Assembly: GCF_004801295.1 (NCBI RefSeq)
Contig: NZ_SSOC01000005.1
Coordinates: 1 to 64,000 of the forward strand
DNA length: 64,000 nucleotides
DNA from: Pseudothauera nasutitermitis
GTDB taxonomy: Bacteria; Pseudomonadota; Gammaproteobacteria; Burkholderiales; Rhodocyclaceae
Reading direction: 5' to 3'
In this document: positions 16,203-28,064 of the stretch, piece after piece
Position numbering within the stretch: the stretch's first letter is position 1
How the letters are laid out: every line of letters begins with the position of its first letter
Notes under the pieces: model-generated
Database searches by the model: none
The model's input: only the letters and a program-made list of their open reading frames with translations
Told to the model about the DNA's origin: nothing
Program-made: the position numbers and the translations under genes

Positions 16203-17627
16203 CTAGCGCGAACGCAACACGTCCAGATCGGCCTGATTGCGCTCATCCGAATACAGGACAGCCTCATCCATCGGTGCATCGGCGAAGCACTGCACCAGCA
16301 CATTGCTCAGCGACCGGTCGTGAAACAGGATTTCCACCGCGCAGCGTCCATATTCGGCCTCGATGGTCGCCAGCAGGTTGCGCGCATAAGGCGTGGCCAG
16401 ACGTGCATCGAGCAGCAGATTGGCGAACAGGATGCCGTCCGGCGCCAGCGCGCGCCGCGTATCGCGCCAGAACTCCCGCGTGACCAGATGCGCCGGAATG
16501 CTGGTGAGCGCACTGTAGGCATCGACCACCACCACATCGAAGCGCTCGCGCGTCGTGGCGACGAACTGGCGCGCATCGTCGGCCACGAAGCGGCCCCGGA
16601 TCGGCTCCCCAAGAAAATCGCGCTCGGCCAGTTCGCGGATCGCCGGGTCGATGTCCACATAGACGAACTCGTTCTCCTCCGCGCGGTGCGACAGCGTGAA
16701 CCCGCCCGCGCCGAGCACCGCGATGCGCCTGCCGCGCAGCCCCATTTCCTCGAATCGCGCGCGCAGGCGCTCGATGTAGCGGCTGTAGCGCGGCGGCTCG
16801 TGGCGGTCGATGATCGACGCCACTGAATTGTTGACCCAGAAAACCCGGGGCTGCTGCAGGCCGGGCAGACGCACCTGCTCCACCCGGTACGTGGCATAGG
16901 CGGTTTCGGTGTGCTGGGGCAGCAGCAGATTCGCCCCCAGCGCCCCCAGGCCGATCGACAGCGCGGCGAACCATTCCCGTCCGCCCCCCGGCGCCGGGCC
17001 GATGAACGGCGCCACCGCCAGCAGCATGCCGGCGCATACCAGCACCGCGGCGGAAACCCCCAGCCACTGCATGACCAGCAGCGAAAGCGACAGCGAGCCG
17101 AGAAAGGAGCCCAGCGTGGACCAGTACAGGGCCATGCCGCTGCGCGCGCCCACATGCTCGTGGCGCAGCAGGTTGGTGAGGATGGGCACGGTCTGCCCGA
17201 GCAGCCAGGCCACCGGGCACAGCACGCCAAGAACGAACACCAGATAGGCCAGCAGCACCGGCTGCAGCGCGGCGAACAGCGCATCGACCACCGGCCCGGC
17301 CAGGCCGAAGGCGATCAGCGCGGCGGAGATCAGGAAGTTGCGCCGCACCCGCGCCAGGTAATCGCCCGCCACCCGCCCCCCGGCGTGATAACCCAGCGCC
17401 AGGGCCAGCAGGAAGAAGCCGATGGTGGGCGCGGTGACGGTGATCGCGCTGCCCATGTAGGGCACCAGCCGGCGCAGGGCGATGATCTCCGCGCCGAGCG
17501 AGGAGAAGCCTTCGACGAACACCATGACGAACAGCAAGGCGCCTGGCAGGGCACTCGCCGGCGCGGGGCCGGCATTTTCGGCAGAGGACATGAACTGGAC
17601 CAGAGGACGCAGAAATCGGCAACGCAT
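16203..17627 (-). CDS. membrane-fused spermidine-synthase-like protein
   Basis: A 474-residue protein. The N-terminal half has six or more hydrophobic helices; the C-terminal half (about 250-474) is a SpeE-like Rossmann domain with IAVLGAGGFTL, EFVYVDIDPAI and FDVVVVDAYS. The glycine motif is GAGGF rather than the GGGDGG of true spermidine synthases, so aminopropyl transfer is doubtful. Two starts are possible: 17627 (used) and 17591 (MSSAENAG); neither has a good ribosome site. It converges on the ColS-like gene with only 5 bp between. The real substrate is unknown. Confidence 0.75.
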   Translation of the reverse strand: MRCRFLRPLVQFMSSAENAGPAPASALPGALLFVMVFVEGFSSLGAEIIALRRLVPYMGSAITVTAPTIGFFLLALALGYHAGGRVAGDYLARVRRNFLISAALIAFGLAGPVVDALFAALQPVLLAYLVFVLGVLCPVAWLLGQTVPILTNLLRHEHVGARSGMALYWSTLGSFLGSLSLSLLVMQWLGVSAAVLVCAGMLLAVAPFIGPAPGGGREWFAALSIGLGALGANLLLPQHTETAYATYRVEQVRLPGLQQPRVFWVNNSVASIIDRHEPPRYSRYIERLRARFEEMGLRGRRIAVLGAGGFTLSHRAEENEFVYVDIDPAIRELAERDFLGEPIRGRFVADDARQFVATTRERFDVVVVDAYSALTSIPAHLVTREFWRDTRRALAPDGILFANLLLDARLATPYARNLLATIEAEYGRCAVEILFHDRSLSNVLVQCFADAPMDEAVLYSDERNQADLDVLRSR

Positions 17628-18045: not shown

Positions 18046-18435
18046 TCAGGCGGTCTTGGCGAACAAGGCCACGTCCCGCAGCCCTTTGAAGTGCGCATCG
18101 CAGGTGAGCAGTTCGGCGCCCTGGTGCCGTGCCGTCGCGTAGACGATGGCATCGGCGGTGGCCAGCTTGTGCTCGCGATGCAGGTCTGCCGCCAACAGGG
18201 CGATGCGGGTATCCAGCGGCACAACGACGCATTTTTGCGTGTAGGCAATCACCTGGTCGGCCTGTTCCTCGCCCAGTTCGCGCACCAGCCACTTCGACAG
18301 TTCGAGCTGCACGATGGTGGGCACGATGCACTGCGGCTTGTCCGGGAACTGCTTGCCCAGCTTCTTGCCGACCGCGCTGCCGGTGAGCCATTCGATCCAG
18401 GCCGAGGTATCGACCACGCGCAGCGGCGCCGCCAT
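18046..18435 (-). CDS. vapC: PIN-domain toxin, VapC family
   Basis: A 129-residue PIN ribonuclease. The acidic metal site is complete: D in VVDTSAWIEWL, E in QLELSKWL, D in ATADAIVYATA and D in LTCDAHF. VapC toxins cleave tRNA or rRNA. Its ATG overlaps the stop of the antitoxin gene by one base (TAATG), the normal VapBC coupling. It is complete and probably active. The pair lies between the spermidine-synthase-like gene and the cytochrome operon. Confidence 0.9.
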   Translation of the reverse strand: MAAPLRVVDTSAWIEWLTGSAVGKKLGKQFPDKPQCIVPTIVQLELSKWLVRELGEEQADQVIAYTQKCVVVPLDTRIALLAADLHREHKLATADAIVYATARHQGAELLTCDAHFKGLRDVALFAKTA

Positions 18436-18647
18436 TAGTAACGGTCCTCGCGGTCGCGGTAGCCGTCGGTGCGCGCCCCCTTGGCGATGCCGGCCAACTG
18501 CTCCAGCTCGAGCACCGGCATGACCAGCACGCCCTTGCCCTTGGGAATGAACACGAACTCCTGCCCGGCTTCCCAGTGCTGCTCCTCGCGCACGGCCTTG
18601 GGGATGGAAATCTGGAACTTGCTGGACAGGGTGGCGGTGGCGGTCAT
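18435..18647 (-). CDS. vapB: AbrB/MazE-type antitoxin, VapB family
   Basis: A 70-residue antitoxin. The N-terminal swapped-hairpin DNA-binding domain is seen in SSKFQISIPKAVREEQ and GQEFVFIPKG; the C-terminal ~25 residues would wrap the toxin. The start is taken as MTATATLSS at 18647; the frame stays open to 18722 but the extra residues are not conserved-looking. It should repress its own promoter in 18648-18720 and neutralise the VapC encoded just downstream. Confidence 0.88.
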   Translation of the reverse strand: MTATATLSSKFQISIPKAVREEQHWEAGQEFVFIPKGKGVLVMPVLELEQLAGIAKGARTDGYRDREDRY

Positions 18648-18876
18648 TTTCGTACCCTCAAAGCGTCGATAACGATTTGGTAAGAATACACCCCTGCGCC
18701 CTGGGCAGCCAGCCACGTTCATCCCACCTCCATCCCCCGCTGCCAGCCGAATCCCCAGCTCACGCTGCCGCCGCGCACCACCACGCCCCTGGACTCACGT
18801 AAATCATTGATAAACCTGACACAGCAGGCTAGATCGTAGTCCAGCGAAGTTCGGCGCTGGAGTCAGCTTGAAACAG

Positions 18877-18906
18877 AAAAAGGCCGGGGAAGTCTCCCCG
18901 GCCTTT
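18877..18906 (-). terminator. rho-independent terminator of the cytochrome operon
   Basis: Stem AAAAGGCCGGGGA / TCCCCGGCCTTTT with a short loop, flanked by A and T runs on both sides. It lies 38 bp past the stop of the CbcL-like gene and ends the 18.9-24.8 kb operon. The rest of the 18648-18943 gap holds no gene I can support. Confidence 0.9.
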
Positions 18907-18943
18907 TCCATGCGATGGCACGCCGGCGGCATGCCGGCCGCCG

Positions 18944-20932
18944 TCAGTGGGTGAAGAAACCGACTCCCACCAGCACCAGCAGCACCAGCCCGATGGTAAT
19001 CAGCGTCAGCCCCAGGACCACCGAACCGACATGCAGCGGCCTGGACGGCTCATCCACCAGATACTTCTCCAGCTCGCCACTGGCCAGCAGGCGCTGGTAC
19101 TGGGCCGGATGCTCGCGGCGAAACTCTTCCAGCGACTGCGTGCCGGTGAACATCACCACGTCGGGCGGCGGCAGCTTGTCGGGGCGGAAGTGGTTGTTGA
19201 AGAAATGCACGGTGAAGAGGAACACCGCCGCGAGGAAGGCTTCCTCACCATGCACCAGCGTCGCCACGTTGAACACCCAGCCCGGCAGGAAGCTCGCGGT
19301 GACGTGCGGGAAGGCCAGCATCAGCCCGCTCCAGCCGATCACGTTCACCCCCCAGAATACCGCCCAGTAGTCGAACTTCTCGAAATAGGTCCAGCGGTCG
19401 AACTTCGGCTTCGGACCCTTGCCCAGGAACCACTTGAACATGCCCACGCAGTCGTCCAGATCCTTCCAGTTGGGCAACAGCGAATCCGGGCCGAACCAGC
19501 GGAAGTTCCTGTCGCGCAGCAGCTTCTGCATCACGTAGAGGAAGTGGATCAGGAAGATGCCGACGAAGAAGCCCGCGGCGATCCGGTGCACGATGCCCAT
19601 GTTGCGCGGACCGCCCAGGGCCGCGGCCACCTGCGGCGCCCAGTCGGTATGGGCGAACAGTGCCGCCGTGCCGGTGACGATGAGCGTCATGGTCACCAGC
19701 GCGAACACCAGGTGGGCAACGCGCCAGCCCCACGGGAAGCGGCGGAAGTGCTTCTCCGGCAAGGCCAGGGTGGCGGTATCCACATGGGTCTCCAGCCTGT
19801 GTTCCTTGCGCTCCTTCCACTCGCGGTAGTACCACAGCGCGCAATGCGTCCAGAAGAAGGCGAACACGACGATCAGCAGCCCCACCATGAAGCGGGTGGC
19901 GATCCACATCTGCGGATACTTCTCGAAGTCGTGGCTGTTGGCGTGCGGGCCGAAGGTGACGAAGCCCGCGGTGGCCGTGACCATGCCCGGCTTGCGGTCG
20001 TTGTGGCACTGCTGGCAGGTCTTCAGGCGGTTGTCCATGTGCACCTTGGAGTCCGGATCTTCCGCCCCCAGGATGCCGTGGCTGCCGTGGCAGTCGGAGC
20101 ACTTGGCCGTGTAGGTCCAGCCCAGCTTGCTGACCTGGCCGTGGTAGGTGTCGCGATAGCTGTTCAGCTCCGCCAGGTGGCAGCCGCCGCAAGCCTCGAT
20201 GTTCTCCAGTTTGAACGGATCGGACGACGCGCCGCGCACCTCGTGGGTGGTGTGGCAATCGGTGCACACCGCCCCCTTGGCGTCGCCCTCGCCCATCACC
20301 AGTTGGCCATGCACCGAGGTCTCGAAGTCCTCCAACTGGTCCTCGTGGCAGGCCAGCCCGCAAGTCTGCGGAATGGACAGCCGCCATTGCTCGCGCTCCG
20401 GCGTGCCCGCCTTGGGTACGGCGAAATCGTGCGTGTTGTGGCAGTCGCTGCAGGCAGCCTTGGGCCGGTCCGGATAATCGGTATCCGGGCGGGCATGGAA
20501 GGAGTCCTTGTACGCGGCGATGTTGGCGGCCACCACGCCCAGGCGGTCCTTGTTCTTCGACTCGCCGCGCGCCTGCGCTTCGTCCCACAGCTTCGCGTGG
20601 CAGCTGGAGCACTCGGCAGGCGCCACGCCCTCGGCCTTGACGTGGTTTTCCTGGGCGTCGACGATCTCGGCATGGCATGAGACGCAGCTCATGCCGGCAT
20701 GCACGCCCTTGCCGAAGCGCTCCGCATGGATCGTGGCAAGCGGCCTCGGCTCGTCGTCCAGGCCGGGCACTTCGATTTCCTCCGCACCATCCGCGTGGCA
20801 GGAGAGACAGGTGGCATCATCCAGGGCTGCGTGCGGACTGGCCGGCGAGGCCGCGGTCGCGTGGGCCGTGGCGAAGCCCGCCACACAGGCGCAGACCATC
20901 AGCAGGCGCGCCACGAGATTCTTGGTTGGCAT
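18944..20932 (-). CDS. CbcL-like fused multihaem c / dihaem b quinone oxidoreductase
   Basis: A 662-residue inner-membrane protein. A signal peptide (cleavage near ATA-ASP) leads into a periplasmic domain (about 35-320) with eight CxxCH haem sites (CLSCH, CVSCH, CSSCH, CSDCH, CTDCH, CGGCH, CSDCH, CQQCH) plus one CGLACH (CX3CH), nine in all. A TM helix at about 340-362 is followed by a cytochrome b domain (about 395-600) with paired histidines (VAHLVF, IVHRIA, LIHFLY, LVHGEE, TVHFFN), and a last TM helix near 638-660. Fusion of a nonahaem c domain with an FdnI/HydC-type b domain is the architecture of Geobacter CbcL. Role: exchange electrons between quinone pool and periplasmic cytochromes. 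Last gene of the operon. Confidence 0.85.
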   Translation of the reverse strand: MPTKNLVARLLMVCACVAGFATAHATAASPASPHAALDDATCLSCHADGAEEIEVPGLDDEPRPLATIHAERFGKGVHAGMSCVSCHAEIVDAQENHVKAEGVAPAECSSCHAKLWDEAQARGESKNKDRLGVVAANIAAYKDSFHARPDTDYPDRPKAACSDCHNTHDFAVPKAGTPEREQWRLSIPQTCGLACHEDQLEDFETSVHGQLVMGEGDAKGAVCTDCHTTHEVRGASSDPFKLENIEACGGCHLAELNSYRDTYHGQVSKLGWTYTAKCSDCHGSHGILGAEDPDSKVHMDNRLKTCQQCHNDRKPGMVTATAGFVTFGPHANSHDFEKYPQMWIATRFMVGLLIVVFAFFWTHCALWYYREWKERKEHRLETHVDTATLALPEKHFRRFPWGWRVAHLVFALVTMTLIVTGTAALFAHTDWAPQVAAALGGPRNMGIVHRIAAGFFVGIFLIHFLYVMQKLLRDRNFRWFGPDSLLPNWKDLDDCVGMFKWFLGKGPKPKFDRWTYFEKFDYWAVFWGVNVIGWSGLMLAFPHVTASFLPGWVFNVATLVHGEEAFLAAVFLFTVHFFNNHFRPDKLPPPDVVMFTGTQSLEEFRREHPAQYQRLLASGELEKYLVDEPSRPLHVGSVVLGLTLITIGLVLLVLVGVGFFTH

Positions 20933-21048
20933 ATCACTGTTCCAGAAACGGGCTCTCCGGCCGCCTGCGGCAGTCCTGGAACCGCCAAGACCCCGACGTC
21001 CCGGTGAATCATGGACGCGGCGGAGTCTCGGCGGCCCGAGCCTTTTAT

Positions 21049-23256
21049 TTATTGGAATTTGTAGATGTAACGCACGCTGAAGAAGTTGGAGACCTGCTTC
21101 GGCTTGGTATAGACCGTGGTGCCATCGACGTTCGCGTTGGCGCCATAGACGAAGGGCGAGCCGTCGGCGAACTGCCAGGTCCAGTCATCCGTCTTCCAGC
21201 GTTCGTGGATGAAGTCGAAGCGCACGTCGGCGGATTTGTCGATCGCGTAGGTCGAGAACAGCGAGAGGCGCAGGAGCTTGTTCTCGATGTCCGGCACGCC
21301 CAGCGAGAGGTTGGCCTGCGTGGGGAACACGGCCACGCCGCCAGCGGCCAGCGGGGAGACATCCTGGCCATACTTGCTGACCGAGCGGAACCATTCCAGA
21401 TCCGCGCCGAAGTTCAGGCGGGAAGTGAATTCCCAGCGCAGGCCCAGGCCCAGGGAGTTGCCCGTATCCTGCAGGTCCGTGTACTTGACCGCCGGATCGC
21501 CGAAGCCGCCGCCGGATCCGCCCGTGGTATGGGTGCGGTAGTGGGACTGCTCGGCCTTGTTCTGGTCGTAGCTGTACCAGGCGGTGAGCTTCAGTTCGTC
21601 GCTCACCGTGTAGACCGCATCAATGCTGTACAGGCGGTTCGTCCCCTTGTCCAGGCCGTGGGTCATGGTGGCCTGGTTGTCGTAGTCATCCCGCCCTTCC
21701 TCGGCGCTGAACTGGAAGGACAGCGCCTCGGACGGCGACCAGTCCACGCTCAGCCGCAGCCGGTCGCGGTCGCGCCCGGCCATGTGCAAGGGGTTAGTCA
21801 GGTTGCGGATGTCCTGCAGGCCGCCGAGGCCGACGTCGTCGGAGTGGTCCCACAGCGCCCGCTTGTAGCGGTTGCCGCTGCGGCGGCTGTGCAGGTAGGA
21901 GATGCGCCCGTTGGCGACGTCGGATAGGGAACGGCGCAGCTCCAGCCGCCCCGTCGTCTCATCCACCTGGCTGCGCAGGGGCACCACGATCTCTTTCTCC
22001 GCGCCGGTCACGCGCAGGGGCCGGTCCCGGTCCTGACGCTTGTCCTCCACCCCGGCGGTGAAGCTGTAGACCTTGGCGAAGCGGTAGGTGCCTTCCAGCT
22101 TGCTGGTGACGGTCGTGTAGGAGTTGCGCACGTAATCCGGAGAGGTGGCGTTGTACGCGGCGCCCGCCGTGGAGTAGGTGCGGATCGGCGTCTTGTCCTC
22201 GACATCGTGGTAGCGCAGGCTGGCGTTCAGGGAAAAGTTCTTGAACGGCCGGGAGGTCAGGCCCAGATGGACCAGCCTGGTATCCACCTTGCCATCCAAC
22301 TTGTCCGGGCCAACGGCCCGCTGGTGTTCAGACGGCCAGTCGGTGACGCCATTGGTGGGCAGGGAATCGTCCTGGATGGCGCGGGCGTACTCCAGCTTGA
22401 GGGTGGCGCGCGTGGTCGGCGTAAAGTTGTAGCCGCCGTTCAGGAAGAACTGATGCGCCTCGTTGTCTCCCGGGAAGGAGAGATAGGTCGGATTGGTGAC
22501 GGACCCCGCGCCGGTGTAGCCGACCCGCACCAGCGGATTGTTGTTTTTATACCAACTGCCGTTGTAGCCCCCGCGCAACTGCCATTTCTTGGTGGTGTAG
22601 GAGAGGGCCGTCTCGATCTGGCGCGTGGTGCTGTCGACGGGCTCGGTGACGAAATGCACGGAATGGCCCGGGCTCCAGGCACGCGTGCCGGTCTTTTCCT
22701 CGTGCTGGTAGTTGATGTTGAGGTCCAGCCCCGGCAGGAGGTTCTTGTAGAGCCCCAGGCTGGTCTGCTCACGCAGGGTCCCCAGGGTGAGGTCGCGGCG
22801 CGGGGCCGTGTCGAGCCCGGTATTGACGACGGTCTGCTTCGTCGTGCCGGCGCCCTGCAGCGGGGTGTTGAAGGTCTGGGGCGATTCGCGGGTGATACGG
22901 TTGTATTCCAGCTTGATGCCGATATCCCCCTGGCGCAGGTATTCCCCCTGCAGCGAGCGGCTGCCGTCCACCCCCAGGCTGTCGGTCTTCAGGGTCATCC
23001 ACGTTCCAGTGACCTCGTCCCGCTTGACGATGTCCGCATCCAGCAGCCAGAACGCCTTGTCCCCCTCGCGCATGCCGTCGTAGATACCCTGCTGGGCCCG
23101 GTCTTTCGACCAGACGCCGATGCCCACGGAAACCTTGCTTTCCGGCTTGATCAGTTCGTCCAGTTCATCCATTTCCTGGGCCCAGGCGGTGCCGCCGAAG
23201 GCGGAATACAGGGCCATGGCCACGGCGCTCAGGCGGAAGCTCTTGTGCATGTTCAT
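21049..23256 (-). CDS. mtrB: MtrB/PioB-family outer-membrane beta-barrel
   Basis: A 735-residue barrel protein. The signal peptide ends in GGTAWA-QEM. Many alternating aromatic/polar strands follow, and the protein finishes in RYIYKFQ, the aromatic C terminus used for barrel insertion. No haem motifs. The family forms a sheath around a decahaem cytochrome so that electrons cross the outer membrane (MtrAB, PioAB, MtoAB). The decahaem gene ends 18 bp upstream. An AGGGAG site precedes the ATG at 23256. I see no CxxC near the N terminus such as Shewanella MtrB has. MtoB or PioB would be equally valid names. Confidence 0.88.
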   Translation of the reverse strand: MNMHKSFRLSAVAMALYSAFGGTAWAQEMDELDELIKPESKVSVGIGVWSKDRAQQGIYDGMREGDKAFWLLDADIVKRDEVTGTWMTLKTDSLGVDGSRSLQGEYLRQGDIGIKLEYNRITRESPQTFNTPLQGAGTTKQTVVNTGLDTAPRRDLTLGTLREQTSLGLYKNLLPGLDLNINYQHEEKTGTRAWSPGHSVHFVTEPVDSTTRQIETALSYTTKKWQLRGGYNGSWYKNNNPLVRVGYTGAGSVTNPTYLSFPGDNEAHQFFLNGGYNFTPTTRATLKLEYARAIQDDSLPTNGVTDWPSEHQRAVGPDKLDGKVDTRLVHLGLTSRPFKNFSLNASLRYHDVEDKTPIRTYSTAGAAYNATSPDYVRNSYTTVTSKLEGTYRFAKVYSFTAGVEDKRQDRDRPLRVTGAEKEIVVPLRSQVDETTGRLELRRSLSDVANGRISYLHSRRSGNRYKRALWDHSDDVGLGGLQDIRNLTNPLHMAGRDRDRLRLSVDWSPSEALSFQFSAEEGRDDYDNQATMTHGLDKGTNRLYSIDAVYTVSDELKLTAWYSYDQNKAEQSHYRTHTTGGSGGGFGDPAVKYTDLQDTGNSLGLGLRWEFTSRLNFGADLEWFRSVSKYGQDVSPLAAGGVAVFPTQANLSLGVPDIENKLLRLSLFSTYAIDKSADVRFDFIHERWKTDDWTWQFADGSPFVYGANANVDGTTVYTKPKQVSNFFSVRYIYKFQ

Positions 23257-23274
23257 GATCGTTCTCCCTGTCGA

Positions 23275-24255
23275 TTAGCGGCGCAGGCTCTGAGATTGGA
23301 CGTAGCCGCCCGCGGTGCCGTCGGCGCTGTTCTGGGTGCTGTTGCTGCCGTGGATGTTGGTGTGGCAGTTCAGGCAAGCACGCCCCACGGTCTGGAACTG
23401 GCCACTGCCCGGACCTTGCGGCAGGGAAGCCGCCGCGCCGTGGTGGCTCAGGCCGTCGTGGCAGCTCTGGCACAGGAAGGGCGGGCGCGACTTCAGCAGG
23501 TTGGGGCTGGTCGTGCCATGCGGGTTGTGGCAGATGGCGCAGTCCTCGGTCACCGGCTGGTGGCTATGCACGAACGGGCCGCGCTTTTCCATGTGGCAGG
23601 AATAGCAGGTGTCGTTGGTGCTGCTCTTGATGAGCGTCTTCGGGTTGTCGTTATGCACGTCGTGGCAGGAAGTGCACGCCACCTTGCCTTCGAGCACCGG
23701 GTGGTGGGACGGGCGGTTCACCTGGACGCGCTGTTCCTTGTGGCAGGCGAAGCAGACCTCGGTCTGGGCCTTCTTGTCGCGCACCTTGTCATGGTCCGTA
23801 TGCACCTTGTGGCAGGAGGTGCAGGCCACGTCGCTGTTGGCATGCACGCTGGACTGCCAGTTGATGTGCTTGCCGCCCTGGTGGCAGCTCAGGCAGCTTT
23901 CGTTGCGCAGGAGGGCGGGCGTATCGGTGTTCTTGCCGAACCACAGATCCGGCTTCGGCGGCTTGCCGCTGCCCTTGTGGTTCAAGTGCGATTCGCTTTC
24001 GCCGTGGCAGTCCGTGCAGGTCGGCGTGCGGCCGTCGGCGGTGACGCCGTGCCTGGTCTTGCCGATGGCGAGCACCGATGGCCGCAGCTCCAGCATCGTC
24101 GGTTTGGAATCGTCGGCGTCATCGTGACAGGAGGTGCATTGCGCATCTCCTCTCAGGATCAGATCGTCGTCACCCTTTTCCGCGGCGTACGCGGTACTCA
24201 AAAAAAATGCGCTGACGCAAAGCGCCAACGCATAAGCCGTTCTCGAACTTATCAT
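23275..24255 (-). CDS. mtrA: periplasmic decahaem cytochrome c, MtrA/MtoA/PioA family
   Basis: A 326-residue secreted protein with signal peptide cleaved near TAYA-AEKG and exactly ten CxxCH motifs in order: CTSCH, CTDCH, CLSCH, CTSCH, CFACH, CTSCH, CYSCH, CAICH, CQSCH, CLNCH. Length and haem number fit MtrA/MtoA. Additional histidines near each site suggest bis-His ligation. It would plug the barrel encoded directly downstream. The ATG at 24255 has GGAG at a good distance; a GTG four codons upstream is possible but not needed. Confidence 0.92.
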   Translation of the reverse strand: MISSRTAYALALCVSAFFLSTAYAAEKGDDDLILRGDAQCTSCHDDADDSKPTMLELRPSVLAIGKTRHGVTADGRTPTCTDCHGESESHLNHKGSGKPPKPDLWFGKNTDTPALLRNESCLSCHQGGKHINWQSSVHANSDVACTSCHKVHTDHDKVRDKKAQTEVCFACHKEQRVQVNRPSHHPVLEGKVACTSCHDVHNDNPKTLIKSSTNDTCYSCHMEKRGPFVHSHQPVTEDCAICHNPHGTTSPNLLKSRPPFLCQSCHDGLSHHGAAASLPQGPGSGQFQTVGRACLNCHTNIHGSNSTQNSADGTAGGYVQSQSLRR

Positions 24256-24406
24256 TATTTTCTCCACGCAGCCTCAGGCCCAATGCAGCGCTCCGGTCGC
24301 ATCAGCGGCCTGCCCTGCAAGCTTTCTTGCGGGTTATCAAATCGCAGCATTTGGCGCATTTGCTGCGGCATCCGGACCGCCCGGCCATCACCCCTCACCC
24401 TGGGAA

Positions 24407-24434
24407 TTCCCCGGGCCTGCGCTTGCCCCGGGAA
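24407..24434 (-). promoter_or_regulatory. hairpin between monohaem and decahaem genes
   Basis: Arms TTCCCCGGGC and GCCCCGGGAA pair at 9 of 10 positions around an 8-nt loop in the 209-bp gap between the two cytochrome genes. No T-run follows, so it may be an mRNA processing or stability element that sets unequal cytochrome levels. No other feature seen in the gap. Confidence 0.4.
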
Positions 24435-24464
24435 CGGTGTGGCCGGCGTTTCTCATGCACGGAT

Positions 24465-24809
24465 TTAGTGCCCCAGTATCCAGGCGATCAGGTTCTGGAG
24501 TTCGGCGTCATCCTTGACTTCGATGATTCTGTGCTCCTCTTCGGAACCGTCTTCCAGCTTGACCACGGGGCCCGACTTCATGTGCTCGATGAGCTTTGCC
24601 GCGGCGTCGGCCTGCCCCCTGTGGTCTTCGGCGATCTTCTTCAGCGAAGGGCCTTTCTTGGATCTGGCGGGCGCATGGCACTTGGTACAGTCTTCCTTCT
24701 TGAACAGCCTCGAGGCGGCATCCGCATCGACGGCGCTGGCGCCTGCGGAGAACGACAGCAAGGCAACGGAAGAAACGAGCAAAGTTAGGCGGGAGGGATT
24801 GAGCTTCAT
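24465..24809 (-). CDS. periplasmic monohaem cytochrome c (class I, MtoD-like)
   Basis: A 114-residue secreted cytochrome. The signal peptide is cleaved near GASA-VDA. One haem site CTKCH follows, then a lysine-rich helix (RSKKGPSLKKI) and a candidate methionine ligand in IEHMKSGP. Small monohaem cytochromes of this kind shuttle electrons in the periplasm; MtoD plays that part beside MtoAB in iron-oxidising Betaproteobacteria. GAGGAG precedes the ATG at 24809. It is the first gene of the operon. Confidence 0.85.
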   Translation of the reverse strand: MKLNPSRLTLLVSSVALLSFSAGASAVDADAASRLFKKEDCTKCHAPARSKKGPSLKKIAEDHRGQADAAAKLIEHMKSGPVVKLEDGSEEEHRIIEVKDDAELQNLIAWILGH

Positions 24810-24941: not shown

Positions 24942-25006
24942 TAGGAAATTTCCTACACGCCCGGTGACGGTTTTTCAGTGCCGTACGGCACTCATGACTT
25001 AGGTCA
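24942..25006. promoter_or_regulatory. palindrome cluster upstream of the cytochrome operon
   Basis: Three inverted repeats in 65 bp: TAGGAAATTTCCTA (24942-24955), AGTGCCGTACGGCACT (24977-24992), both perfect, and TGAC-TTAG-GTCA (24995-25006), whose 4-bp spacing resembles CRP/FNR-type sites. They lie 130-200 bp before the first cytochrome start, and the intergenic 24810-25260 holds no gene. The NarL-type regulator encoded just upstream is a candidate ligand. The sequences are certain; the regulatory role is inferred. Confidence 0.55.
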
Positions 25007-25260: not shown

Positions 25261-25917
25261 TTACGTCCCACCCTCCGGCATGCGATCGAGCAGGTCGTGG
25301 GCAATCGCGTAGCGGATCAGTTCGGACAGGCTGGTCAGGTTCATCTTCGCCAGGATGCGCGTCTTGTGCGTGCTCACCGTCTTGACGCTCAGGTTCAGTT
25401 CGGTGGCGATGTCCGAAAGCCCCTTGCCGACGATGAGCATCTGGAAGATCTGGTACTCGCGGTCGGACAACCGGGTGTGCGGCGGCCCTTCCGTCACGCT
25501 CGGGATCAGGCCGCGCGCGAGCTGCTCGGCCATCGCCGGGCTCAGGTAGACGCCCCCGTTCATCACCTTCCGGATGATCGTGACCAACTGCTCGGCATCA
25601 TTCTCCTTGGTCACATAGCCCGACGCCCCGGCGCGCAGCGCGCGCAACGCATATTGCCCTTCCTGGTGCATGGTGAGCACCAGGATCGGCATCAGCGGCT
25701 TCTCGGTGCGGATCTGCTTGATCAGATCCAGCCCGTTGCGGCCCGGCATCGAGATGTCGAGCAGCAGGATGTCCCAGTCGCGCTCGCGGATCTTCGCCAG
25801 CACCTCGTGGCCGTTGGCCGCCTCGCCGACCACGGCGAACTCTTCCTCGTCGGCCAGGATCATCTTCAGCCCGTCGCGGATGATGGCGTGATCGTCGGCA
25901 ATCAGAACGCTGCTCAT
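25261..25917 (-). CDS. NarL/FixJ-family response regulator
   Basis: A 218-residue regulator. Receiver domain 1-122 with D8/D9, phospho-acceptor D54 in LLLDISMPG and K in YVTKEND. LuxR-type helix-turn-helix about 150-212 (LSDREYQIFQMLIVGKGLSDIATELNLSVKTVSTHKTRI, read in pieces). Its ATG overlaps the kinase stop by 4 bp. Cognate kinase: the gene immediately upstream. Its place directly in front of the cytochrome operon makes that operon the obvious target, though this is inference. Confidence 0.9.
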   Translation of the reverse strand: MSSVLIADDHAIIRDGLKMILADEEEFAVVGEAANGHEVLAKIRERDWDILLLDISMPGRNGLDLIKQIRTEKPLMPILVLTMHQEGQYALRALRAGASGYVTKENDAEQLVTIIRKVMNGGVYLSPAMAEQLARGLIPSVTEGPPHTRLSDREYQIFQMLIVGKGLSDIATELNLSVKTVSTHKTRILAKMNLTSLSELIRYAIAHDLLDRMPEGGT

Positions 25918-28013
25918 GCTTGAACCTCCTCGGTCACTGGACGCGACATCGGCACCACGACTTCCACCGTCGTTCCCCTGCCGATCTCGCTCGTGATGTA
26001 CACCTCGCCGCCCAGCATCCACACTCTCTCGCGGATGCCGATCAGGCCAAACGAACCGTGCGGCCGGCCATGCTCCTCGAGCCGGATGCCCTTGCCGTCG
26101 TCCGCGACACGCAACTGCAGGCGCTCGCAGTCGACCTTCAGCGCCACCCTCACGTGCCTCGCCTCGGCGTGGCGCACCACGTTGGTCAGCGATTCCTGCA
26201 GGATGCGGAACAGCGCGCTCGACGCCTCGTCGCTGATTTCCAGCGGTACCTCGTCGTCCAGGTCCGCATCGATGAGCAGCCCGCTCTTCTGCGCCACGTC
26301 GTCGATCAGCCAGCCCACCGCGGGGAACAAGCCCAGATCGTCGAGCATCAGCGGACGCAATTCGGTTCCCAGCCGGCGCACGGAACTGATCGCCATGTCG
26401 ATCTGCCCCTGCACGGTAACGACGCGCTCTTCCAGATCCGGACAATCCTTGCGCAGCCTCGCACGGATCGACGACAGGCCCAGCTTGAGTCCAGAGAGCT
26501 GCTGGCCGAGATCGTCGTGCAGTTCGCGGGCGATGCGCGTGCGCTCCTCTTCGCGCACCGATTGCAGCGAAGCGGAAAACTCGCGCAACTGCCGGTTCAG
26601 CCGGCGCAGTTCGGCCTCGTGCTCGAGGCGCATGGTGATGTCGCGCAGGATCGCCGTGAACAGCTTCTTGCCCGCGACGTTCAACTGCGAGATCGACGCA
26701 TCCACGATGACCTCCTCGCCGGTCACGCGGCGGGCGACGATGTCCGCCCGCGCGCGCTTGATCCGCGCCGTCTGGCCGCTTTCGGAAAATTTGTCGATGT
26801 GGCTGCGGTGGCCGAAACGGTAGCGCTCGGGGATGAAGCGCTCGAGGGGCGTGCCCAGCGCATCGGCGGCGGAACAGCCGAACAGCTTTTCCGCCGCCGG
26901 GTTGAACAGCACGATGCGCTGGTTCTCGTCGATGGTGACGATCGCGTCCATCGCCGAACTGATGGTGCCCTGCAGCCGGGCCTGGCTTTCGCGCAGCGAC
27001 TGCTCCAGCCCTTCCTCGCGCCTGAGCTCCCGGGCCAGCGCGAACGCCCCCAGCCCGAGCAGCACGATCACCCCCACCACCCATCCGGCGGTAAACATGG
27101 CCTGATCGTTCCAGGCGCTCAGCGAGGTGCTCACGGAGACCGAGATGGTGGCCATCAGCGGAAAGCCGTCCACGTCGCGCAAGGCGACGATGCGCGGCTC
27201 GCTTCCATGCGTGCGGTGCAGGATCTGCGGCGGGTCGCGTTCGGTGGCGCGCCACATCTCCCGGTCGCCGGTCAGCTCCTCGAGGAGCTCGCTCGACATG
27301 TATTCGGTGTACAGCGGCACGCCGTCGCGCTTGAAGAGCGCGATCGAAGCACTGTCGTCGGGGGTGATCGAACGATACAGCTCGTCGAAGTAGTTCACCG
27401 GCACGCTTGCGACCACCACGCCGAGGTAGCGGCCATCCTCCCCCTCCAGCCTGCGGCTGACGAAGATCGACCACGCCCCGTCGACGCGGTTGCGCACGCG
27501 CAGCCCGATGAATGCCCCGTCGACCGTGCCATTGCGCTGCGCCACCACGTAATCGCGGTCGCCGACGAAGATGCCGACCGGAGACCCCAGCGCCGAATAG
27601 GCGACCCGGCCGTCCTCGCCGACGATGAACAGGGAACGCACCTGCTTGGCGCCGTGCATACGCGCATTCAGGATGGCGTTGATCGCGCCGACGTGGCTGC
27701 CGTCCCTCCGGGTCCACACCTCCTCCTGATGGAGACGCTCCACGGTGCCCTGCAGGATCAGATCGACACTCTGGAAAGCGCGGGCGGTCTGCTCGGAGAG
27801 GATCAGGCTGAGCGCGGAGAGGTTGCGCTCGATGCTGTCGACCTGCCGGCTGCGCGCATTCCACAGCGTCAGCGCGGCGGTCAGCGCCAGCACGCAGGAA
27901 ACGATCAGCCAGAAGCACAGCACGGCCCGCGCCGGCCGTACATGCAGCCTGCCCGGCGGCCTCAGGCCATCGGCCCTAGGGTCTGTCGAGACCCTGTTCG
28001 ACGTCGCATCCAT
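25914..28013 (-). CDS. NarX-like membrane sensor histidine kinase with PAS domain
   Basis: A 699-residue kinase. TM1 about 28-52; a large periplasmic sensor (about 53-300) resembling a double-Cache fold; TM2 about 304-328; a PAS domain (about 345-465, MDAIVTIDENQRIVLFNPAAE); HisKA_3 with H499 in IARELHDDLGQQ; and an HATPase domain with FGLIGIRERV. Cache domains usually bind small organic ligands directly. Start: ATG at 28013; a GTG at 28055 is also in frame. The dnaE stop is only 51 bp upstream with no terminator seen, so read-through is possible. Confidence 0.88.
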   Translation of the reverse strand: MDATSNRVSTDPRADGLRPPGRLHVRPARAVLCFWLIVSCVLALTAALTLWNARSRQVDSIERNLSALSLILSEQTARAFQSVDLILQGTVERLHQEEVWTRRDGSHVGAINAILNARMHGAKQVRSLFIVGEDGRVAYSALGSPVGIFVGDRDYVVAQRNGTVDGAFIGLRVRNRVDGAWSIFVSRRLEGEDGRYLGVVVASVPVNYFDELYRSITPDDSASIALFKRDGVPLYTEYMSSELLEELTGDREMWRATERDPPQILHRTHGSEPRIVALRDVDGFPLMATISVSVSTSLSAWNDQAMFTAGWVVGVIVLLGLGAFALARELRREEGLEQSLRESQARLQGTISSAMDAIVTIDENQRIVLFNPAAEKLFGCSAADALGTPLERFIPERYRFGHRSHIDKFSESGQTARIKRARADIVARRVTGEEVIVDASISQLNVAGKKLFTAILRDITMRLEHEAELRRLNRQLREFSASLQSVREEERTRIARELHDDLGQQLSGLKLGLSSIRARLRKDCPDLEERVVTVQGQIDMAISSVRRLGTELRPLMLDDLGLFPAVGWLIDDVAQKSGLLIDADLDDEVPLEISDEASSALFRILQESLTNVVRHAEARHVRVALKVDCERLQLRVADDGKGIRLEEHGRPHGSFGLIGIRERVWMLGGEVYITSEIGRGTTVEVVVPMSRPVTEEVQA

Positions 28014-28064
28014 CGCTTTCCCGTGTTGATCGAAGCAACATCCCCGTGCTGCCACTCCCGCAAC

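Follow-up and report, generated by a model that had tools for sequence, protein, structure and literature searches.

Pseudothauera (genome G000) carries, in a 64-kb window on contig C5 that is the whole stretch of DNA analysed here, a cluster of four genes, mtoD, mtoA, mtoB, and mtoC. We conclude, with considerable confidence, that the locus is an mtoDABC operon for a two-module electron conduit between the quinone pool and the outside of the cell, a type of system that is already known. Two features of the work look new, in that we did not find them in print in the open-access literature: a palindrome before mtoD that may act as an operator and an apparent in-place exchange of mtoAB in some relatives.

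The four genes and the candidate quinone partner

The four genes are open frames in the order mtoD, mtoA, mtoB, and mtoC, all on the minus strand. The first, mtoD (24465..24809), encodes a monohaem periplasmic cytochrome c of 114 amino acids with one CxxCH motif (PF00034), and the protein groups with the monohaem cytochromes related to PDB entry 4XXL (E 2.5e-25), which is MtoD of Sideroxydans lithotrophicus ES-1 (PMC4412085). The product of mtoA (23275..24267) is a decahaem periplasmic cytochrome of the MtrA type, with ten CxxCH motifs, a score of 252.9 bits against a cut-off of 192.2 for the DmsE/MtrA-type model TIGR03508, and a match to chain A of 6r2q at 5e-56. Only 18 bp separate mtoA from mtoB (21049..23256), which encodes an outer-membrane barrel of the MtrB/PioB type (PF11854, 5.7e-129; TIGR03509 over cut-off), and a barrel gene adjoining a decahaem gene is the arrangement of an MtoAB/MtrAB conduit. 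The PF11854 match is the sole one in the whole genome, so MtoB is the only MtrB of the host. Finally, mtoC (18944..20932) encodes a nonahaem c domain fused to cytochrome b (PF01292 over cut-off), and an intrinsic terminator follows it on the same strand (18873..18913; hairpin of -30.2 kcal/mol, z -6.2, with T's on the 3' side). Frames, family matches, and hairpin thus bear out the original prediction of four co-directional genes closed by a terminator.

MtoC belongs to the CbcL/MtrH/MtoC family by its multihaem N-terminal c domain, its C-terminal cytochrome b domain with six transmembrane segments, and its clustering with mtoA, mtoB, and mtoD. Six hydrophobic segments follow the signal peptide, and the nine haem motifs that had been predicted are present, but only if one CxxxCH is counted beside eight CxxCH. 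That composition is the usual one, as a census of 111 MtoC frames, in which some genes count twice as both named and unnamed loci, found eight CxxCH plus one CxxxCH in 95, nine CxxCH in 13, and stubs or cut frames in 3. Moreover, a 79-row MtoC alignment shows two groups of nine invariant histidines, one in the haem motifs and one elsewhere in the c domain, which together, as far as an alignment can tell, fit nine bis-His haems. Five histidines that lie within or beside the membrane segments (H363, H407, H449, H561, and H576) are likewise invariant in the 79 rows.

The original prediction also named, as evidence against it, a CymA homologue elsewhere that clearly serves the conduit. The genome holds two PF03264 (NapC/NirT) genes, and neither is near mto. 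One adjoins napH (NCBIfam, 431.9 bits; cut-off 234) and a napB-like gene (144.4 bits, below the cut-off of 230), and the other adjoins a gene that we take to be nirS, for a cytochrome cd1 nitrite reductase, a name that NCBIfam did not confirm. Both therefore sit in what look like denitrification clusters. Because the MtrB is single and both NapC/NirT genes lie away from mto, MtoC appears to be the best candidate for the quinone partner of the conduit, although a NapC/NirT protein might still serve it from a distance.

Occurrence among relatives and proposed electron flow

We surveyed 249 genomes of the host's family, with at most four candidates scored per genome for MtoC and for MtrB; distant barrels may escape the BLAST threshold, and absence from a genome is not proof. 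Co-occurrence was counted from 68 MtoC rows of at least 400 bits and 115 MtrB rows of at least 100 bits. An MtoC row was found in 55 of the 249 genomes, an MtrB row in 69, and both in 37, and a NapC/NirT match was found in 188. For the 64 full-length mtoC genes, MtrB lay within 5 kb in 25 and no more than 400 bp upstream on the same strand in 22 (19 genomes). The adjacency that was to be checked is seen in these 22, which directly follow an MtrB gene; seen from the barrel, mtoC lies inside 5 kb of 24 of the 101 long MtrB rows. We note that nearly complete genomes (G006, G028, G073, G120, G124, and G194) are among those that hold mtoC without an MtrB row.

Of 452 loci, the best 80 were named, and 78 of these were kept (L052 and L062 were too short). 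Both mtoA and mtoB lie within 5 kb of mtoC in 37 of the 78, and 35 of the 37 also show an mtoD-like gene at a distance of up to 7 kb. In 6 loci a single one of the two conduit genes is present, short stretches account for 14, and the other 21 are open, with at least 4 kb on each side, and have no mtoA or mtoB match within 5 kb. An mtoD-like gene nevertheless lies within 500 bp of mtoC in 20 of the 21 open loci, and thus the steadier partner of mtoC is the monohaem gene rather than the conduit. An mtoD-like gene also precedes mtoC in all seven MtrB-less genomes in which 1.5-kb flanks were read (G051, G053, G070, G088, G124, G194, and G230). The full order mtoD-A-B-C is shared with Pseudothauera rhizosphaerae, Dechloromonas hankyongensis, Aromatoleum, Azoarcus, and an Accumulibacter metagenome-assembled genome, and its recurrence in many relatives indicates that the arrangement is not due to chance. 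The closest MtoC among the best 80 of 452 loci is that of P. rhizosphaerae (83%). The set of MtoCs around that of the window has 18 rows, namely, 14 that have mtoA and mtoB at most 5 kb away, L045 (mtoB at 3.7 kb and mtoA at 5.8 kb from mtoC), 2 on short contigs, and the window itself. As a curiosity of arrangement, L036 has one mtoC between two mtoA/mtoB-type pairs.

We infer a path in which MtoA, within the MtoB barrel, would take electrons through the outer membrane, a periplasmic carrier, whether MtoD or a different protein, would ferry them, and MtoC, held by its cytochrome b domain, would exchange them with the quinone pool instead of CymA/ImoA. An outside donor, perhaps Fe(II), reduced humics, a partner, or an electrode, could then feed quinone and, through it, denitrification. 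Such inward flow is our first choice, by a little over even chances, because a surface MtrC was not seen at the locus and the host has denitrification genes. Alternatively, the operon might export electrons to Fe(III), humics, or electrodes as MtrCAB does with MtrH/CbcL, and MtoC would then be a low-potential quinol oxidase. We rank outward flow second and consider it rather unlikely, even as Zhong and Shi report no feature that distinguishes quinol-oxidising from quinone-reducing family members and place MtrH of Rhodoferax ferrireducens beside mtrABC (PMC6295460), and even as the host looks heterotrophic from its RuBisCO search (below). An MtrC-like or OmcA-type surface cytochrome was not seen adjoining the cluster, however; elsewhere in the genome only the Paired_CXXCH model was tried, and its sole match was MtoA, with MtoC missed, such that an MtrC may lie at other sites. 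A reversible or other role for the conduit takes the rest of the probability.

Several results weigh against a conduit that draws electrons inward through MtoC. An MtrB row of at least 100 bits is lacking in 18 of the 55 mtoC genomes (17 have none listed at all), and thus MtoC can also serve something besides MtoAB. Among the 6 genomes of the genus, mtoC is present in only 2. An AlphaFold model of MtoC, built with 13 aligned rows, had a predicted local distance difference test score of 52.7 and was unusable. In ES-1, as described in PMC13390432, MtoD binds neither MtoA nor ImoA and the monohaem cytochrome PmcA binds both, so a path from MtoA through MtoD to MtoC is not safe, and the steady pairing of mtoC with mtoD-like genes is hard to square with this; the same source has MtoD able to pass electrons from CymA to MtrA in Shewanella. 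Finally, the genome search did not reveal a convincing form I or form II RuBisCO, as the one match (52.4 bits against a Pfam cut-off of 30.1) was read as a RuBisCO-like protein. Autotrophic Fe(II) oxidation therefore looks unlikely, and the conduit is probably used mixotrophically rather than for autotrophic iron oxidation.

The regulator pair and the palindrome before mtoD

Immediately 5' of the mto operon, also on the minus strand, lie genes for a NarL/LuxR-type response regulator (25261..25917; PF00072 and PF00196 over cut-off) and a sensor histidine kinase (25914..28055; HisKA_3/PF07730, PF02518, and PAS over cut-off). The start codon of the kinase is uncertain, and its dCache_1 match scores 37.7 bits, below the cut-off of 45. 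Orthologues of the regulator, 55 to 65% identical, adjoin 18 other mto clusters. At more than 200 bits, an orthologue accompanies 17 of the 37 clusters in which both mtoA and mtoB are no farther than 5 kb from mtoC (17 of 34 when at least 6.5 kb of upstream sequence is required) and also L045; the 21 open loci in which mtoAB was not matched yielded no orthologue, and the best match in orthologue-less loci was 118 bits. This regulator threshold defined the loci that count as having the pair, and their kinase exceeds 200 bits in 17 of 18 and scores 161 in L034.

A perfect palindrome, TAGGAAATTTCCTA (TAGGAN4TCCTA; 24942..24955, unstranded), lies 146 nt before mtoD and is proposed as the operator of the neighbouring response regulator. 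Allowing at most three mismatches, the palindrome is present about 130 to 190 nt before mtoD, the starts of which are BLAST projections in the relatives, in all 18 regulator loci (window included) versus 2 of 54 loci without the regulator; shuffles gave an expectation of 0.2 of 18. The regulator-less exceptions are L050, an Aromatoleum contig that ends short of the regulator position, and L067. L045 stood outside the 18-locus test by its 7-kb limit, yet holds regulator and palindrome, and two regulator-less rows that were far too long as cut (L088 and L112) contain no TAGGA palindrome. Fisher's test for the association gives a p of 4.6e-15, an overstatement because the palindrome was spotted in the window before testing and the loci are related. 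The exact half-site pattern, moreover, occurs 19 times in the 1.40 Mb of the 80 loci versus 0.4 expected, and all 19 sites sit 133 to 255 bp before an mtoD-like match. When the five half-site letters were put in all 30 orderings, the TAGGA palindrome was found in 16 of 17 regulator loci and the runner-up in 1. We conclude from this comparison of sequences that the adjacent kinase/regulator pair probably switches mto transcription through TAGGAN4TCCTA. A second palindrome of the window, GTGCCGTACGGCAC, was discarded as not conserved, because with at most three mismatches it occurs in 1 of the 18 regulator loci, the window itself. The open-access literature searched contained nothing pertinent on two-component regulation of mto or on a promoter site; there the palindrome, in five spellings, was matched only in unrelated mouse work, and the half-site letters had no match in PMC1274295.

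The whole genome has three copies of TAGGAN4TCCTA, the mtoD site included. The other two (C1:613943-613956 and C1:618542-618555) lie one 5' of a hybrid kinase and one about 180 nt before a clade II (Sec-dependent) nosZ (TIGR04246, 930 bits), and the regulator encoded between them is the closest genomic paralogue of the mto regulator (52% identical; second, after the regulator itself, of 68 matches). Across the 249 genomes, a scan gave 92 sites in 72 genomes by summation, and the 75 listed were examined, with 53 MtrB rows, picked by eye for genomes with sites, as the comparison. Of the 75, 15 precede an MtrB match by 1.3 to 2.2 kb. Another 11 precede a clade II nosZ match by at most 1.5 kb, and for nine of these the distance is 284 to 376 bp. 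Inspection of 20 stretches around sites showed a protein with ten CxxCH motifs in L144 and monohaem cytochromes in L145, two sites already among the 15 before MtrB, and two of the sites without such a neighbour adjoin a monohaem cytochrome (L143) and a gene read as a nosZ start (L141). The palindrome is not general for nosZ: in 72 genomes a clade II nosZ row exceeded the cut-off, and only 11 of them show a listed site in this position. Additional copies TAGGAATATTCCTA, located neither by mto nor in the immediate promoter of nosZ, were seen at G009:C108, G011:C40, G011:C161, G030:C73, G070:C125, G188:C229, and G230:C7. Some TAGGAATATTCCTA copies lie near genes read as response-regulator or nos-type cytochrome genes, which suggests a wider regulon.

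Instead of serving as the operator of the adjacent regulator, the palindrome could be a shared element of a different kind, for example, part of a promoter or a site like that of FNR. Indeed, 49 of the 75 listed sites lie before neither MtrB nor a nearby clade II nosZ, and the genome-wide frequency of the palindrome is no higher than that of a reversed control in most genomes, such that the signal is in the positions. We nevertheless consider this doubtful, as the palindrome tracks the regulator, the only other two genomic sites lie on either side of the cluster that encodes the closest paralogue of that regulator, and L039, in which the pair sits on the far side of mtoC, still keeps a copy with one half-site change before mtoD. 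We speculate, at somewhat under even odds, that in denitrifying Rhodocyclales paralogous NarL-type regulators bind the same palindrome before mtoD and, in some genomes, before clade II nosZ. If so, related signals would switch the supply of outside electrons and the last step of denitrification, with a possible tie of the conduit to N2O reduction and thereby to a greenhouse-gas sink. The palindrome may also bear on when the Mto systems of heterotrophic denitrifiers switch on.

Apparent exchange of mtoAB and relation to known conduits

The two modules may not always share a history. In the MtoC tree, that of the window groups with MtoCs of Aromatoleum, Dechloromonas, Azonexaceae, and others (16 of 38 rows; support 100/99.8). 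Three loci (L040, L041, and L042) resemble the window in MtoC (71% identical), regulator (60%), and MtoD (49 to 52%), but their MtoA and MtoB are 46 to 47% and 22 to 24% identical, whereas in L044 of D. hankyongensis the values are 71% for MtoC, 62% for the regulator, 53% for MtoD, 71% for MtoA, and 53% for MtoB. The MtoA tree joins L040 to L042 with three Gallionellaceae rows and one Rhodocyclaceae row (support 97/98). Constraining that tree to unite L040 to L042 with L044 costs 114 log units (approximately unbiased [AU] test, p 1.3e-46), and forcing the MtoC of L040 to L042 onto the same three Gallionellaceae rows and one Rhodocyclaceae row costs 736 (AU p 3.5e-8); the groups were defined after viewing the trees, and the MtoA tree holds four long rows (L076, L094, L107, and L110). 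L071, L087, and L107 have an MtoA inside the MtoA set of the window and an MtoC outside its MtoC set. Gene order is unchanged in L040 to L042 (stretches of about 6.1 to 12 kb), and the simplest reading of trees and order is that an mtoAB of another lineage was apparently swapped in place between an mtoD and an mtoC of the window's lineage. Such exchange between fixed neighbours suggests that the inner and outer modules evolve separately.

Perhaps MtoC and MtoD are mainly a periplasmic quinol:cytochrome c module to which MtoAB is an optional add-on, as the mtoC genomes lacking an MtrB row, the mtoD-like genes of the open loci, and the retention of mtoC, mtoD, and the regulator pair in L040 to L042 might suggest, but we consider this improbable: mtoAB is present in nearly every row of the window's own MtoC set, and the absences of MtrB rest on at most four candidates per genome in a search that may miss distant barrels and did not extend to Cyc2 and PCC3.

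Two neighbours of the operon complete the picture. Past the terminator, at 18046-18722 of the window, PIN-domain and MazE/AbrB-type genes likely form a toxin-antitoxin pair, and 16203-17627 encodes a membrane protein whose C-terminal domain resembles spermidine synthase, going by weak matches in Pfam.

An mtoDABC operon read as a conduit between quinone and the outside has close precedents. The original prediction had presented the locus as a hybrid with a CbcL-type protein and CbcL as a Geobacter protein, and the literature supports neither the novelty of such a hybrid nor a restriction of CbcL kin to Geobacter. Zhong and Shi (2018) defined a CbcL/MtrH/MtoC family that spans 15 phyla, which makes the attribution to Geobacter outdated, and described mtrH/mtoC clustered with mtrAB/mtoAB in seven bacterial species (PMC6295460). 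Clusters of mtoC with mtoA, mtoB, and mtoD were already published (PMC6295460, PMC5566968), and Baker et al. (2022) found mtoC and mtoD beside mtrCAB almost confined to a betaproteobacterial group (PMC8805035). The present locus extends the MtoC-type conduit to Pseudothauera, and the survey places it in further Rhodocyclales, among them cultured strains of Aromatoleum.

MtrCAB has a surface decahaem MtrC beside mtrAB, and such a gene was not found at the Pseudothauera locus. CbcL of Geobacter sulfurreducens is not known to lie beside MtrAB-type genes. By description, it likewise joins a nine-haem c domain to a six-transmembrane cytochrome b, but CbcL and MtoC/MtrH form separate clusters that are about 35% identical (PMC6295460). 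R. ferrireducens MtrH is of the same family, 55% identical to the two published MtoCs, and is clustered with mtrAB, but its cluster adds mtrC and two cymA genes (PMC6295460). The mto cluster of ES-1 has homologues of MtoA, MtoB, and MtoD but a tetrahaem CymA/ImoA where the Pseudothauera operon has MtoC (PMC4412085, PMC13390432); the original prediction was right in that a CbcL-family c/b fusion occupies the place of CymA/ImoA. The nearest likeness is to the mto clusters of Dechloromonas aromatica RCB and Gallionella capsiferriformans ES-2 (PMC6295460), which belong to different genera and have the same four components, with a nonahaem MtoC described for ES-2 and the operon of D. aromatica given as mtoABCD by He et al. 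(2017) (PMC5566968). These two are likened by description, and the comparison of sequences runs through relatives such as D. hankyongensis, whose MtoC is 71% identical to that of Pseudothauera.

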